Positions 5,521 to 37,073 of a stretch of DNA of 40,668 nt are shown here, one piece after another. The notes beneath the pieces are model-generated. The model saw only the letters and a list, made by a program, of their open reading frames with translations. It was not told the origin of the DNA and made no database searches. Both the position numbers and the translations under genes were made by a program. How positions within the stretch are numbered: the first letter of the stretch is position 1; every line of letters begins with the position of its first letter. The stretch is from Euryarchaeota archaeon SM23-78 (lineage in GTDB: Archaea > Nanobdellota > Nanobdellia > Woesearchaeales > SM23-78), in NCBI GenBank assembly GCA_001595785.1, contig LSSJ01000008.1, positions 1 through 40,668 on the forward strand, written 5' to 3'.

Positions 5521-6210
5521 AAATGAACCTCCCCACCCTAAAGGGCGAGGTATCATTTGAAATAAAAACAAAATATTTTTTATGCAACGAAAGCCGGAAG
5601 CTTTCGTTGTTGGTAATAGGAAGGAAGGTTGCTAAAATTAGTTTTCCAGCTCCCTTGGCTGTAACGAATGTAATTTTGAATTACATCATAAGTCACATTA
5701 CCTACAGAACAATAAAACTTTCCAGGACTCCAGAAATGACCCTTACGAAAGTGCTTCCTCAGCCAAGGAAAATTCCTGAACAAAGCACCTGCTGTTTTTG
5801 CTTTCAAAACAGCAAAAACATAAGTTGGTGATACTGTTGGTGGAAAACTAATAAACAAATGCACATGATCAGGCATAACCTTAAGCTCATAGATTTCCAG
5901 CCTTTTTCAAGGGAAACAAGGTTAATTATGCCTTCAACACAACACCTCAAAGATAACCTCGCCAAAACAATGTAAGAATACTTCACCTTCCAAACAAGGT
6001 GAAAACAGTTTTGACCCACGCTATGTTTACTTCGTTTCAAACCTTCCATTTAAATCGCCTCCGCGTTTTTTTGCGGAGCTAACGCTAACACAAACGGTTT
6101 GTTTGAGTGCGGCAAAATTCGCCCCGCACTCATTCATAATCAAACACCAAAGAAAAAATTAACGGAGGACGGCGGTTCCTCTCGGCTAAACTCCGAGTAT
6201 CCTCCGCCGT
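5521..6210 (-). mobile_element. IS200/IS605-type insertion sequence (decayed)
   Basis: This is a block of about 690 bp, the size of an IS200-type element, carrying only a Y1-transposase reading frame on the minus strand. Both ends hold imperfect hairpins expected as TnpA recognition structures. At 5528-5550, CCTC/GAGG and CCCT/AGGG pair; read on the minus strand it is GATAC-hairpin-GAGGTTC. At 6163-6210, CTCGG (6181-6185) pairs with CCGAG (6193-6197) inside ACGGCGG/CCGCCGT (6169-6175 with 6204-6210), with an alternative outer stem CGGAGGA/TCCTCCG. Two more inverted repeats lie at 6059-6078 (CTCCGC/GCGGAG) and 6104-6132 (TGAGTGCGG/CCGCACTCA). The exact ends are inferred. The element sits immediately after AAGGTGAAATAAAAAATG, which looks like the original start region of the next operon gene. 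Confidence 0.75.
5580..6049 (-). pseudogene. tnpA: IS200/IS605 family transposase TnpA, frameshifted
   Basis: The N-terminal part (HSVGQNCFHLVWKVKYSYIVLA, starting at 6049) and the C-terminal part (MPDHVHLFISFPPTVSP... to AFVA at 5580) lie in different minus-strand frames. Together they would give a Y1 (HUH) single-strand transposase of about 155 residues. The frames join near 5895-5905, where LEKG is followed by W-K-S in one frame and by L-E-I-Y-E-L-K-V-M-P-D-H in the other, which looks like loss of one base. The HUH motif (HVH) and the likely catalytic Tyr (in VIQNYIRYSQ) are both in the second fragment. It is either inactive or affected by a sequencing error. No tnpB accompanies it. Confidence 0.85.
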
Positions 6211-32135: not shown

Positions 32136-32241
32136 GGGATTGTATGAGTTAATGCTTGTACAACATTAAGCTATGGGGTAGCTTGGATCATCCTCTCTGG
32201 TTTGGGGCCAGAAGACCCCGGTTCGAATCCGGGTAGCCCCA
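32136..32241 (+). tRNA. tRNA-Pro (UGG) with an intron in the acceptor stem
   Basis: Exon 2 (32170-32241) gives a full tRNA body: D arm GGGTAGCTTGG, anticodon stem TCTGG/CCAGA with loop TTTGGGG (anticodon UGG, 32203-32205), T arm CCCGG-TTCGAAT-CCGGG, acceptor 3' strand TAGCCCC and discriminator A. Directly upstream only GCTA can pair with it. Joining GGG at 32136-32138 to G32170 restores GGGGCTA, a perfect 7-bp acceptor stem. The 31 nt between form a bulge-helix-bulge. The mature tRNA would be 75 nt. CCA is not encoded. Confidence 0.88.
32139..32169 (+). other. 31-nt tRNA intron at position 3/4 with canonical bulge-helix-bulge
   Basis: AATG (32133-32136) pairs with CATT (32164-32167), a 4-bp helix flanked by two 3-nt bulges, GGA (32137-32139) and AAG (32168-32170). 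The inner stem TTGTATGAG/CTTGTACAA (32140-32148 with 32155-32163, two G-U pairs) has a 6-nt loop. Outside, AG/CT and then AAGCTACC (32120-32127)/GGTAGCTT (32177-32184) pair. Cutting each bulge after its second base gives GGG + GCTA, exactly the acceptor stem needed. Confidence 0.88.
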
Positions 32242-33608: not shown

Positions 33609-33857
33609 ATGGTAAAAGTAGGCGATGTAGTAGAGATTGTTAATGAAATAGTAGAAGACCCTACTCTTCCCAAGAATATAAAAGCCAAACTCGAAGAGAT
33701 TGTTGCTGAACTCAAAGAGACCAATCCCAAAGACATAAGACTGAGAGCAGATAAGTGCATTCATGAGCTTGATAGCATCTCAAGCGATGTTAATCTCCAA
33801 CCCTTTGTAAGAACACAGCTCTGGAGTATTGTTAGTATGTTGGAAGCCTTGGAGTAG
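33609..33857 (+). CDS. UPF0147 family protein
   Basis: The 82-residue protein is the small helical UPF0147 family, unique to archaea and of unknown role, often encoded after prefoldin beta. Conserved elements are MVKVGDVVEIVNEIVEDPTLPKNIK and NLQPFVRTQLWSIVSMLEALE. ATG 33609 is preferred to the upstream in-frame GTG at 33591. A structured element begins 11 nt after the stop. Confidence 0.85.
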   Translation: MVKVGDVVEIVNEIVEDPTLPKNIKAKLEEIVAELKETNPKDIRLRADKCIHELDSISSDVNLQPFVRTQLWSIVSMLEALE

Positions 33858-33868
33858 ACTGTTTCTTA

Positions 33869-34004
33869 AGTTCAAAAAAAGTAAGTGCCTATTTGCGAGG
33901 GCATCATCTACTAAACCGTCAAAGCGAAAGAGGGGGTTGCCCCATCCGGGGAGTTGAAGCTTTCGATAAAATAAGTGGGCCCGAGCTGGCACTTTTTTTG
34001 AACT
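33869..34004 (+). ncRNA. candidate structured RNA, copy 1 (3' of the UPF0147 gene)
   Basis: AGTTCAAAAAAAGT-aa-GTGCC (33869-33889) pairs with GGCACTTTTTTTGAACT (33988-34004), closing a 136-nt element. Inside are TATTTGCG, TCAAAGCG, then GGGGGTTGCCCCATCCGGGG (CCCC can pair with either G-run), and GGGCCCGAGC near the 3' side. The interior aligns with the minus strand of 36953-37073 over its length, but the closing stem is entirely different there and still self-complementary. It starts 11 nt after a stop codon. The 3' arm runs over the stop codon of the convergent MscS gene. No known RNA family is recognised. Confidence 0.65.
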
Positions 34005-34587
34005 ACTTTTTCCTAAAAGCTTTCCTCTTAATAATTACCTCCCTCTTATTAAAGATAGAGTTAGGAATAATCACTTCTTCTTTCTGAGCTGTTAAGAGTC
34101 TGGTCTCTAAGAAGCCAATGGAAGTTATCCTTCCCTTAACCTCTTTTATCTGGACCACATCTCCCTCATTAAACATCTTCTTACTCTTAATCATGATGCC
34201 AGCTATGAAATTAGGGAAAAAATCCTTAATTGCTAGGAGAAAAGAAACCACAACAATGATTATTATAGCTGCTGCTATCATGTTCAGAACTGCTGTTGTT
34301 AACCCAAGGCTGTTAAGAGACATCACAACAGCTATGAAGTAAATAAAGTAAGATACAAAGTTAGCAATAATTTTTTCTAAAGAAAACCTAAACCCAGCAA
34401 CTGTTCTTAAGTGCTTATCAAGCTTAACCTCGTTAAGAGCTCTTCTAACAATATTACCAATAAGCTTGCCAAGAATAAGCCCGATTAATAATATAAGTAT
34501 AGCTATAACAATCTTTGAAAGCACAGGCGTGAACGTGTCAGTTACGCCACTAATAGCCTCAATTGACTCATTAACAGCATCTGCCAT
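34003..34587 (-). CDS. mscS: small-conductance mechanosensitive channel (MscS family)
   Basis: The 194-residue membrane protein has three helices (about 22-45 VLSKIVIAILILLIGLILG; about 70-95 KIIANFVSYFIYFIAVVMSL; pore-lining helix about 100-130 with ALNMIAAAIIIIVVVSFLLAIKD) followed by the MscS beta domain signature NFIAGIMIKSKKMFNEGDVVQIKEVKGRITSIGFLETRLLT and IIPNSIFNKREVI. It releases solutes under osmotic shock. It lacks the C-terminal alpha/beta vestibule of larger MscS proteins. Its stop codon overlaps the 3' arm of the candidate structured RNA. Confidence 0.92.
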   Translation of the reverse strand: MADAVNESIEAISGVTDTFTPVLSKIVIAILILLIGLILGKLIGNIVRRALNEVKLDKHLRTVAGFRFSLEKIIANFVSYFIYFIAVVMSLNSLGLTTAVLNMIAAAIIIIVVVSFLLAIKDFFPNFIAGIMIKSKKMFNEGDVVQIKEVKGRITSIGFLETRLLTAQKEEVIIPNSIFNKREVIIKRKAFRKK

Positions 34588-34610
34588 GAAAAAGAGATAT
34601 ATACATTTGT

Positions 34611-35528
34611 TTATAAAGGTTTTTCCAAACTCCTCAAATAATCTTTTTTATATTCAAACCCCTCCTTCTTTGCAAGCTTAGCAATAGCTTTATCCAACCT
34701 GCTGCCGTACTGCGCTGCTCTTTTTCTTCTCCAAGCTATTTCTTTGGGTAAGCCAAGTTCCTCTGCTGCTTCACGCAATATTATCTTTGCGTTGTTATCA
34801 TCAATCTTAAAATTATCAGGTATCTTCATAGCAACACCTATTAATTCCTTATCTAGGAAGGGTGTTGAGAAATATATATCTTGGCTTGATGCAACAGCAA
34901 ATTCTCTTAATAAGTCTCGTTCATACATTTTTATTAATCCTCTCCAGCACTCTGCTTGTTTATCATCTGCCTCTTTGTGTCTTTGGTAGCCTGCAAATAC
35001 TTCTTCTGAGCCAAGACCAGTAAACAGGCATTTAACATTATCTTGTTTTGCCATCTCAATACTTGTGAGTTCTACACTACCAACACCAACATTGATTACA
35101 TTATTTAATTCTTTACCAAGTATTTTTACTGTTTTCTTAAAGAGTTCATGAGCTTGTTCTAATGAAATAATTTTAACTCTTAACTCAAATCCTAATTCCT
35201 TTGCAACCTTATTAGCATAAACAACGTCCTCAGGCTCTTTAGTACCTTTATCCTTAAAACCAACAGTGTAGCAAACAAAGTTTTTGCCTGCTTTTTTTGC
35301 AATCAAAGCTATGCTTGAGCTGTCAACTCCACCAGAAAATAATATTCCAAACTTTTCATCAGGGAAGCGGTTCTCAATTGCCTTAATTAATTCATTTGAG
35401 AGCAATTGCTTGATTTTATTCTTATTATCTAAATATTCTTTTATAGAATTTTTAATACCCAGGATTGTTTTTTCCCATTCTTTCTTACTTATAAGTTTGT
35501 TATTCTTGATATAAAACTCTGATTTCAT
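34611..35528 (-). CDS. asparagine-synthetase-type amidotransferase domain without glutaminase
   Basis: The 305 residues carry the ATP-pyrophosphatase domain of asparagine synthetase B: PP-loop ILFSGGVDSSSIA (SGGVDSS at 65-71), LFTGLGSEEVFAGYQRHKE, and the FSTPFLDKELIGVAMKIPDNFKI and REAAEELGLPKEIAWRRKRAAQYGS stretches. The N-terminal class II glutaminase domain with its catalytic Cys2 is absent: the protein begins MKSEFYIKNNKLI. It may use free ammonia or a separate glutaminase, or act on another substrate. The MscS gene follows 23 nt downstream. Confidence 0.8.
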   Translation of the reverse strand: MKSEFYIKNNKLISKKEWEKTILGIKNSIKEYLDNKNKIKQLLSNELIKAIENRFPDEKFGILFSGGVDSSSIALIAKKAGKNFVCYTVGFKDKGTKEPEDVVYANKVAKELGFELRVKIISLEQAHELFKKTVKILGKELNNVINVGVGSVELTSIEMAKQDNVKCLFTGLGSEEVFAGYQRHKEADDKQAECWRGLIKMYERDLLREFAVASSQDIYFSTPFLDKELIGVAMKIPDNFKIDDNNAKIILREAAEELGLPKEIAWRRKRAAQYGSRLDKAIAKLAKKEGFEYKKDYLRSLEKPL

Positions 35529-35634
35529 GCTAAATAATGGATAATTGTATTAATTTATTAAGATTTTCATGGAAAGTTTTAAAAACAACTATAAATCACT
35601 GTTAAGCATCATAATAAATCTTAAAGGTGATATT

Positions 35635-35898
35635 ATGGCAAAGAAAAAAGAAGAAAAAGCAGAAGCACCTGTTGGTGCTAGCAAGGAAGAACAGATAGGC
35701 TTTCATAAAGGAGCATTAAGCACGCTTGCAAAGGAAAGACAGGAGCTTGCAAGACTCCTCCAAATAGTTGAGCAACTCATGCAAATGCACCTAGCAGCTC
35801 TAAAAGAGCTAGGAGTGGACCTTGAAAAAGAAGCCCAAGAAGCAATGGAAGGCGCACCTCCAAAAAAACCTGACAAGCCAATCGATGAGATGCTTTGA
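35635..35898 (+). CDS. small helical hypothetical protein
   Basis: The 87-residue protein is not assigned a function. ATG 35635 (MAKKKEEKAEAP) is chosen from AAAGGTGAT just upstream; the longer frame from 35569 overlaps the promoter region (ACTATAAATC). It has a disordered Lys/Glu-rich start, a helix likely to form a coiled coil (QIGFHKGALSTLAKERQELARLLQIVEQLMQMHLAALKEL) and a Pro-rich end. Possibly a binding or scaffold protein. Confidence 0.65.
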   Translation: MAKKKEEKAEAPVGASKEEQIGFHKGALSTLAKERQELARLLQIVEQLMQMHLAALKELGVDLEKEAQEAMEGAPPKKPDKPIDEML

Positions 35899-35934
35899 GA
35901 TTATTAACTTATTTTTTATTTTTAATTCATAAAA

Positions 35935-35968
35935 GAGGTGGTGAAGGCACCTCAGAAGCCTAATTCTG
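35935..35968 (+). promoter_or_regulatory. two back-to-back hairpins before the next gene
   Basis: GAGGTG (35935-35940) pairs with CACCTC (35948-35953), loop GTGAAGG, and CAGAA (35953-35957) pairs with TTCTG (35964-35968). The GAGGTGGTGA is the best ribosome-binding-like sequence before ATG 35981, yet it is 40 nt away and inside the first stem. Confidence 0.4.
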
Positions 35969-35980
35969 GGATTTGTTAAG

Positions 35981-36469
35981 ATGGAGTATGATATAAAAGC
36001 AATCATTGAAAAACGTGAAAAAGCAAGGAAAGAGTATAAAAAGCTTAGAGACTTGGACAGCATGGTGTTTTTTGAAATTCCTCAAACTGAAATAAAAAAC
36101 ACTAATAAATACAGATGGTGGCTTTCCAACCTTCAACAAAAATGGATGACTGAATTCAATGATAAGAATAAATTTCATAGATCTTCTAACCCATGGAATG
36201 AAACAGGAGGTATATATGGCTATTTTGGTGACGAATATATTCCTCATTGCAAATTTCATAGATATGATGGGACTAAAGAGACTTGGAATGCAGATGATTT
36301 CAGAGTAAAAAGAGGTATATTAATTCGTGACCATTACACTTGGTATGATGTTGTAAAAGTTCAGAGAATATCAAACAACCTTGAAGAGTTCTTAAAGCAA
36401 GAAAAAATTGCTTATACAAGAACTGATTTCAAACTGCCTAAAGGTTTAACTCCTGATGAGCCACGTTAG
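35981..36469 (+). CDS. hypothetical protein
   Basis: I do not recognise this 162-residue soluble protein. It starts with a charged helix (MEYDIKAIIEKREKARKEYKKLRDLD), then an aromatic-rich middle (KYRWWLSNLQQKWMTEF, HRSSNPWNETGGIYGYFGDEYIPHCKFHRYDGTKETW) with several His and one Cys, and RDHYTWYDVVKVQRISNNLEEFLKQEKI. There are no membrane segments. It overlaps the convergent PUA-domain gene by 4 bp. Two hairpins lie just before its start. Confidence 0.6.
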   Translation: MEYDIKAIIEKREKARKEYKKLRDLDSMVFFEIPQTEIKNTNKYRWWLSNLQQKWMTEFNDKNKFHRSSNPWNETGGIYGYFGDEYIPHCKFHRYDGTKETWNADDFRVKRGILIRDHYTWYDVVKVQRISNNLEEFLKQEKIAYTRTDFKLPKGLTPDEPR

Positions 36470-36936
36470 ATATTCAGAGTTTTAATCCGCCTGTTCTTGC
36501 TTATCAGGTTCTGGGCTGTTCCTCTGACTATTCTGGTGCATCCCAAGAAATCTTTTTTATGCTTGACAAGATAGTAACCTCCTTGTTGGGACTCATTAAG
36601 TTCCAAGTCTTCTCCTTTAACCCAGGGCTCAACCTGTTCATCACTAATTTCAAGAATGTTTTTCTTTGCACTTGGCCCTATTAGTTGACTGCCTTCGACA
36701 CTTAATCTTATTCCATCAGGCATTACCTTGCCGATGTATAAGCCTGCCTTGTCAATCCTTAGCTGTCTTTCCTCTCCTTTTTCAATCACATCAAAGCCTC
36801 CTGTTAATAAAAAGAGTTTTTGCTTTGAACTAAGAAACAAGACGCCGTCTAGCTTATCATTAAAATCATAAATTTGTTTAAGACTATCAAGTATGTTTCT
36901 TTTTTCTCGAGTATTAAGAATTTTTAGTTTTTGCAT
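36466..36936 (-). CDS. PUA-domain RNA-binding protein (NOL1/NOP2/fmu C-terminal-like)
   Basis: The 156 residues look like a pre-PUA plus PUA protein of the kind found alone in archaea (COG3270-like or Nip7-like): an N-terminal alpha/beta part (DGVLFLSSKQKLFLLTGGFDVIEKGEERQLRIDKAGLYIGKVMPDGIRLSVEG) and a PUA-like end with DEQVEPWVKGEDLEL and GGYYLVKHKKDFLGCTRIVRGTAQNLISKNRRI. It probably binds rRNA or tRNA in ribosome assembly or modification. It lies downstream of aIF5B on the same strand, separated by a structured element. Confidence 0.6.
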   Translation of the reverse strand: MQKLKILNTREKRNILDSLKQIYDFNDKLDGVLFLSSKQKLFLLTGGFDVIEKGEERQLRIDKAGLYIGKVMPDGIRLSVEGSQLIGPSAKKNILEISDEQVEPWVKGEDLELNESQQGGYYLVKHKKDFLGCTRIVRGTAQNLISKNRRIKTLNI

Positions 36937-36952
36937 TTTTCTTCTTTTTGTT

Positions 36953-37073
36953 GGTTAGCACCAGGCTCCGGCCCGCTTGTGATTCCGAGGGCTCCACCTC
37001 CCCGGATGGGGCAACCCCCTGTTCCGCTTTGATTGTAAAGAAGATGTTGCCTCCGCAAATAATGGTGCTAACC
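36953..37073 (-). ncRNA. candidate structured RNA, copy 2 (between aIF5B and the PUA gene)
   Basis: GGTTAGCACCA and TGGTGCTAACC (36953-36963 and 37063-37073) close a 121-nt element. Read on the minus strand it shares with 33869-34004: TATTTGCGGAGGCA, ATCAAAGCGG, the exact 22-base run around GGGGGTTGCCCCATCCGGGG, and GGGCCGGAGCC near the end. The terminal stem has no sequence similarity to that of copy 1. It begins 11 nt after the aIF5B stop codon, the same spacing as copy 1. It is therefore transcribed with aIF5B and may lie in the leader of the PUA gene. Confidence 0.65.

Follow-up and report, generated by a model that had tools for sequence, protein, structure and literature searches.

The stretch of DNA analysed here (the window) comprises positions 1 to 40,668 of contig LSSJ01000008.1 of Euryarchaeota archaeon SM23-78 (assembly GCA_001595785.1), a member of the Woesearchaeales whose genome (1.48 Mb, 47 contigs) is designated G000. 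It bears two copies of a short structured element, W1 (33869-34004, + strand) and W2 (36953-37073, - strand). A preliminary description of this DNA had given their coordinates and the sequence blocks that they share, and both were verified. The closing stems, AGTTCAAAAAAA/TTTTTTTGAACT in W1 and GGTTAGCACCA/TGGTGCTAACC in W2, each pair with their own far end, as had also been described. Both copies fold better than shuffled sequences (z of -3.15 and -3.26, with none of 200 shuffles as good). Each lies in the sense direction 11 nt from the stop codon of the upstream gene (33857 to 33869 for W1, 37085 to 37073 for W2). This spacing holds for the two window copies but is not a rule of the family, in which the distance ranges from overlap with the stop codon to several hundred nt and the orientation towards the neighbouring genes is mixed. 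Since neither spacing nor orientation is conserved, the earlier reading of a 3'-end or processing element fails.

W1 is bounded by outer arms at 33869-33880 (AGTTCAAAAAAA) and 33993-34004 (TTTTTTTGAACT), which pair with each other. The 5' arm is probably a degenerate or truncated terminal inverted repeat (TIR), and resembles the inner part of an insertion sequence (IS) end, GCGTTCAAAATCT, from the same genus. Inside the arms lie the covarying helix P1 (33885-33889 with 33988-33992), a TATTT bulge of the family type AAUUU (33890-33894), helix P2 (GC-GA-GGGC at 33895-33902 with GCCC-GA-GC at 33979-33986), helix P3 (33922-33930 with 33953-33962) and the apex AGGGGGTTGCCCCATCCGGGGA (33931-33952), which carries the pattern diagnostic of the family. 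W2, on the - strand, is bounded by P1 itself (GGTTAGCACCA at 37063-37073 with TGGTGCTAACC at 36953-36963). It has the bulge TTATTT (37057-37062), P2 (GC-GGA-GGC at 37049-37056 with GCC-GGA-GC at 36965-36972), P3 (37021-37029 with 36988-36998) and the same apex AGGGGGTTGCCCCATCCGGGGA (36999-37020).

The two copies belong to a dispersed family. A blastn search with W1 gave 20 matches in G000 (E values from 1.8e-66 to 1.7e-4), a similarity much too strong for chance, and a covariance-model scan of the same genome gave 30, about 18 of them strong. The first model, R1, was built from 16 G000 copies, and R2 from the same 16 copies with a corrected structure. W1 is the best match of both models in G000 (124.6 bits with R1, 124.3 bits with R2), and W2 scores 119 and 115.6 bits, respectively. 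Among 59 related genomes, 19 contained R1 matches, at 1 to 30 per genome, and in a sample covering the whole class, where few candidates were scored per genome, all nine matching genomes belonged to the same order. The apex pattern AGGGGGNYGYCCCHTHCGGGGA, compared with 84,980 species, matched at least 113 stretches. Among the 80 matches listed, 79 have archaeal titles, mostly Woesearchaeota, the others being 'Nanoarchaeota', 'Nanoarchaeia' or plain 'archaeon'. The only bacterial match among those listed (L286) fails the covariance model, while 27 of the 34 other loci checked match it. Viral contigs gave no match to the pattern. No Rfam family reached its gathering score for the element, either across the window or in two sets of copies, and none of the known ribozyme families in Rfam matched it, in agreement with its description as undescribed. 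As found so far, the family appears to be confined to the Woesearchaeota, tiny uncultivated archaea.

Distant copies define the order of the body, which is nearly constant in length at about 115 nt: P1, a 5' bulge that is usually AAUUU-like, P2, two A-rich joining strands, P3 and the apex. P2 has the form [2 bp]-GA-[4-5 bp]/[4-5 bp]-GA-[2 bp], with a tandem G·A within the helix, which some copies replace by GGA/GGA, by GTA/GAA or by Watson-Crick pairs only, as in GCAAAACTC/GAGTTTTGC. The apex consensus is A-GGGG(G)-NNG-YCCC-loop-GGGG-A. Its CCC pairs with the second G-run, as compensatory changes (CUCC/GGAG, UCCC/GGGA) indicate, and the switch to the first G-run that had been suggested is possible. 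In an alignment of 112 copies, 91.8% of the cells are paired, 21 of the 22 pairs show changes on both sides, and such changes fill 547 cells, compared with 164±13 after shuffling and at most 79 for slid structures. Because this alignment was fitted to the covariance model, an alignment-free control was run as well, in which each 5' strand was compared with its own 3' strand and with that of another copy; it gave Z values of 22.5 for P1, 8.6 for P2 and 11.6 for P3. These results bear out the earlier proposal that the fold is under selection. The unpaired motifs (the AAUUU-type bulge, the tandem G·A and AGGGGG..YCCC..CGGGGA) are conserved in many families, while similarity of the joining strands is lost. 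The loops are A-rich on one strand (A exceeds T in 66 of 83 copies), which suggests a functional single strand. The stems are nearly pure Watson-Crick, G·U being no commoner than A·C (14 to 8 in P1, 12 to 10 in P2, 32 to 37 in P3).

Several structural candidates were rejected. The P2 first proposed in R1 (CGAGGGC/GCyyUCG) was wrong, most of the distant members scoring lower with it than with R2; for members outside the model, the scores rose from 37 to 55 bits (L062), 35 to 51 (L111), 38 to 53 (L103) and 29 to 42 (L137). A MAFFT alignment of the distant copies misplaced P2 and was set aside. Near the apex, pairings of CAUC with GGUG and of CGGA with UCCG were dropped on inspection by eye, being broken in many copies. 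A kink-turn, with a 3-nt bulge directly 5' of the tandem G·A, does not fit the body, in which two covarying pairs (GC/GC, AC/GT, GT/AC, CT/AG) lie between the bulge and the G·A. A guide-like hypervariable loop was also rejected, the joining strands being partly conserved within G000.

Four copies (L021, L023, L122 and L087) are longer because additional hairpins lie within the apex loop or close to it; this region therefore tolerates insertions. In another genome (G271), two pairs of cores stand head-on, on opposite strands and about 18 nt apart (contig 1:21546-21796 and contig 61:31603-31852).

The intact element measures about 165 bp and carries no gene. It consists of an IS5-type TIR (GGCTNNGNNNAAAA...), a 4-nt foot, the body closed by P1, a CGAG-gaa-CGAG hairpin and a second TIR. 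The TIR and the foot, which in many copies reads GTAG, GAAG or AAAG, mostly lie 18-20 nt to the left of P1, and the CGAG-gaa-CGAG hairpin and the other TIR usually lie 28-30 nt to the right of its 3' strand. With at most one mismatch allowed, 30 of 121 copies have a 9-bp direct repeat exactly outside the inverted ends, compared with 0 or 1 in a swapped-flank control, and nearly all of the 30 have ends of the GGCTNNGNNNAAAA form. One of them, L025 from G000, has an A/T-only repeat and is doubtful; it was excluded from the promoter test described below. A second set added 17 further copies with TIRs and 9-bp duplications. Within G000, copy L028 has TIRs and the duplication TATTAAGCA, and copy L034 has the duplication AATTTGAGT, which was read from its flanks outside the automatic scoring. 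The site of W1 is empty in the same-genus genomes G003, G002 and G005, as expected of a lineage-specific insertion. That of W2 is empty in the same three genomes, while G006 has a divergent copy there and G004 and G001 have remnants. The family is thus a set of miniature inverted-repeat transposable elements (MITEs): short, gene-free, multi-copy and dispersed, with TIRs and target duplications. The preliminary description had preferred an RNA to a plain insertion. The family is mobile and the duplications that it had associated with a mobile element are present, but the copies, instead of being near-identical, are highly diverged and still fold.

Some copies have more complex positions. L042 (G000 contig 4:32277-32397) consists of nested elements: a complete inner copy lies between the outer arms GGGTGGGTGAGGCC/GGCCCCACCC, which have a bulge and a CGAG of their own. 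L084 (G006) and L122 (G004), from the same genus, lie in the same intergenic region in opposite orientation, and L055 (G002) and L056 (G006) lie at the same site in the same orientation.

Copies with target duplications are placed at a nearly fixed distance from promoters. Going outward, the 9-bp duplication is followed by about 6 nt (often ACAACA or AAAAC) and then by TTTATATA or TTTAAATA, and a start codon is often found 45-48 nt from the copy (for example L057, L075, L081, L136 and L256). On at least one side of 24 of 29 copies, a TATA-like box begins 14-18 nt outside the element; randomly rotated flanks gave a mean of 1.3 and a maximum of 6. In the second, non-overlapping set the proportion was 15 of 17, so that 39 of 46 copies with duplications in both sets together lie 14-18 nt from a TATA box. 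The insertions form a 4-nt peak and are not spread upstream of promoters, as survival alone would lead one to expect. Insertion would rather be tethered to promoters bound by TBP/TFB, or recognise them.

The likely source of the transposase is an IS5-type element. G051 contains an IS with an IS5-type transposase (DDE_Tnp_1, 1.3e-11; NF033579, 9e-35), whose ends match those of the element and whose TATA spacing is the same. Within the genus of G000, IS5-type elements with matching ends are found in G001 (GGGCTGCGTTGAAAA) and G005 (GCGTTCAAAATCT). NF033579 is the best match of the transposases, at 166.8 bits in G001 and 142.9 bits in G002 (cut-off 140), and just below the cut-off in G005 and G051. 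The G051 IS has the same ends and no folded body, and for this reason the element does not look like its simple internal deletion. A 1.7-kb element in G053 (contig 91; L167:248-1979) shares these ends and the TATA spacing, and its 9-bp duplication (TAAAACAAC) is perfect. Its body is split by genes for an MNT-like nucleotidyltransferase (PF01909) and a HEPN protein, apparently a toxin-antitoxin cargo. At two other loci (L168:2048-2930 and L178:197-290), the leaders of IS5-type transposases have hairpins of G/C-runs immediately in front of the start codon; in read-through transcripts these might mask the ribosome site.

Taken together, W1 and W2 are best read, with a probability of roughly 0.85, as older insertions of a MITE family that is apparently confined to the Woesearchaeota, has its fold kept by selection and inserts just upstream of promoters. 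IS5-family transposases whose ends match would act on the element in trans, and each transposition would create a 9-bp target duplication, almost always just upstream of the B recognition element (BRE) and TATA box of a host promoter. The body would be a single-stranded fold, kept by selection through the turnover of its stem sequences. Selection probably acts mainly on propagating copies, in which the fold would serve the element, and inserted copies would decay neutrally. The body would most likely act as a read-through RNA, with folded single-stranded DNA as the second choice. For W1 and W2, the assignment to the MITEs is based on the homology of their bodies and the empty W1 site, not on their own ends.

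Several observations weigh against this interpretation. No clear target duplication flanks W1 or W2, and the arms of both are without the outermost TIR bases; those of W1 (GTTCAAAA...) match the inner part of the TIR of the genus. The search for an IS5 transposase in G000 and G006, the most copy-rich genomes of the genus, found none. Six G000 copies have blunt GTTC...GAAC ends in common, with differing flanks. Some intergenic sites are shared between genomes, once in opposite orientation, and could be hot spots or cases of long retention. The lack of a G·U excess leaves an RNA role unsupported by wobble.

The alternative that survives best, which is possible although rather improbable, is that the fold works as DNA, a single strand folding back so as to join the ends or to present a hairpin to a transposase or a host protein. 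The near-pure Watson-Crick stems, in which G·U and A·C are about equally frequent, the position of P1 next to the TIRs and the lack of a strand preference relative to genes agree with it, and tandem G·A and GCGAAGC-type mini-hairpins are very stable in DNA too. However, the G·U to A·C comparison cannot decide between RNA and DNA, because neutral decay after insertion predicts the same outcome. The G051 IS shares the ends but not the body, and IS5-type cut-and-paste or copy-in transposition is not known to need single-stranded DNA.

A cis-acting RNA that benefits the host (a 3'-end or processing element, riboswitch-like or a ribozyme), spread by duplication and kept at each site for its function, is unlikely. 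The strong conservation of the fold and the A-rich loops, as in structured RNAs, would fit it, as would the sense position of both window copies close behind stop codons and the IF2 site, which is occupied in G000 and, by a divergent copy, in G006. Stop distances, however, are variable, sites are not kept among genomes of the same genus, and gene orientation shows no significant bias (32 tandem sense and 21 antisense, p = 0.17). Copies that are well preserved are found, on either strand, upstream of the TATA box and hence outside the transcript of that gene. The unbiased orientation, the near-pure Watson-Crick stems and this position argue against a cis-regulatory RNA that serves the host at each site, and selection on a mobile element fits the unbiased orientation and the missing G·U excess better. 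A further proposal, equally doubtful, is that the folded body, as RNA or single-stranded DNA, helps to find or use the TBP/TFB-bound promoter, which would make the element a structured-nucleic-acid-assisted, promoter-targeted archaeal DNA transposon.

It is very unlikely that the covariation is purely mutational, with template switching in inverted repeats keeping them perfect without selection. Such a process would yield near-perfect stems and no G·U excess, but it cannot explain the nearly constant length of the body or the unpaired motifs conserved across families while the joining strands diverge; these motifs refute it as a complete account, although it may contribute. Least probable of all is an element like the repetitive extragenic palindromes (REPs), moved by a Y1/HUH transposase (IS200/IS605 or RAYT-type) through a GTAG foot and a hairpin without duplication: many copies have the foot 5' of P1, W1-type copies show no duplication and the window contains a broken Y1 (HUH) transposase in two frames (5580-6049, - strand; PF01797 match at 5664-5906), yet TIRs and 9-bp duplications are foreign to Y1 transposition and the copy-rich genomes G006, G051, G038, G040 and G035 gave no Y1 match, so that this origin is disfavoured for TIR-bearing copies.

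Some features of the MITE family recall known systems. REP/RAYT elements also have a GTAG-like foot beside a hairpin; the Woesearchaeota element differs from them in its TIRs and 9-bp duplications and in that several copy-rich genomes are without a Y1 transposase. BOX and RUP of Streptococcus pneumoniae are likewise small, structured, dispersed repeats that can be transcribed. They belong to another clade, whereas the present family is archaeal with IS5-type ends. Yeast Ty3, with TFIIIB, inserts at a constant distance from an element of the basal promoter, a functional analogy and not a membership, since the family studied here is an IS5-type archaeal DNA element found upstream of BRE/TATA, with a presumed tether. 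With the IS5 family (NCBIfam NF033579, Pfam DDE_Tnp_1) the element shares matching TIRs and, in the case of the G051 IS, the TATA spacing; it differs in having no transposase, and that IS has no folded body. Prokaryotic IS-related MITEs, such as Correia elements, QMITE2 and those of Sulfolobus and other archaea, are also short, gene-free and multi-copy, with inverted ends and target duplications, mostly intergenic and presumed to be mobilised in trans by an IS that shares their ends (PMC10969869). MITE transcripts are predicted to form stem-loops; MITEs with stable transcripts are known, as are MITE RNAs processed by RNase (PMC10969869). Unlike those MITEs, the Woesearchaeota family has a body with its own multi-helix fold, a tandem G·A and a fixed apex, covarying across an archaeal order, inserts at a fixed TATA distance and is absent from Rfam.

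In a limited look at the open-access literature, which makes the absence of reports weak evidence, no earlier account was found of this family, of a MITE body that covaries across a whole order or of a TATA-anchored archaeal IS5-type insertion. Gene-free transposons are usually thought to need their ends only. Here, the fold was kept across many genera while the stem sequences changed, so it probably does something for the element. The near-fixed distance to the TATA box, of the element and apparently of its IS partner, suggests that basal transcription factors guide insertion, which is known mainly from eukaryotic elements. The family also marks genome change in a lineage that is uncultivated and genome-reduced.

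Integron attC sites lie in arrays of cassettes beside an integrase; the copies of the present family stand singly amid diverse genes, and among 117 neighbours no transposase or other common gene was enriched. The window also contains a tRNA at 32170-32237 on the + strand (Rfam RF00005, 33 bits).

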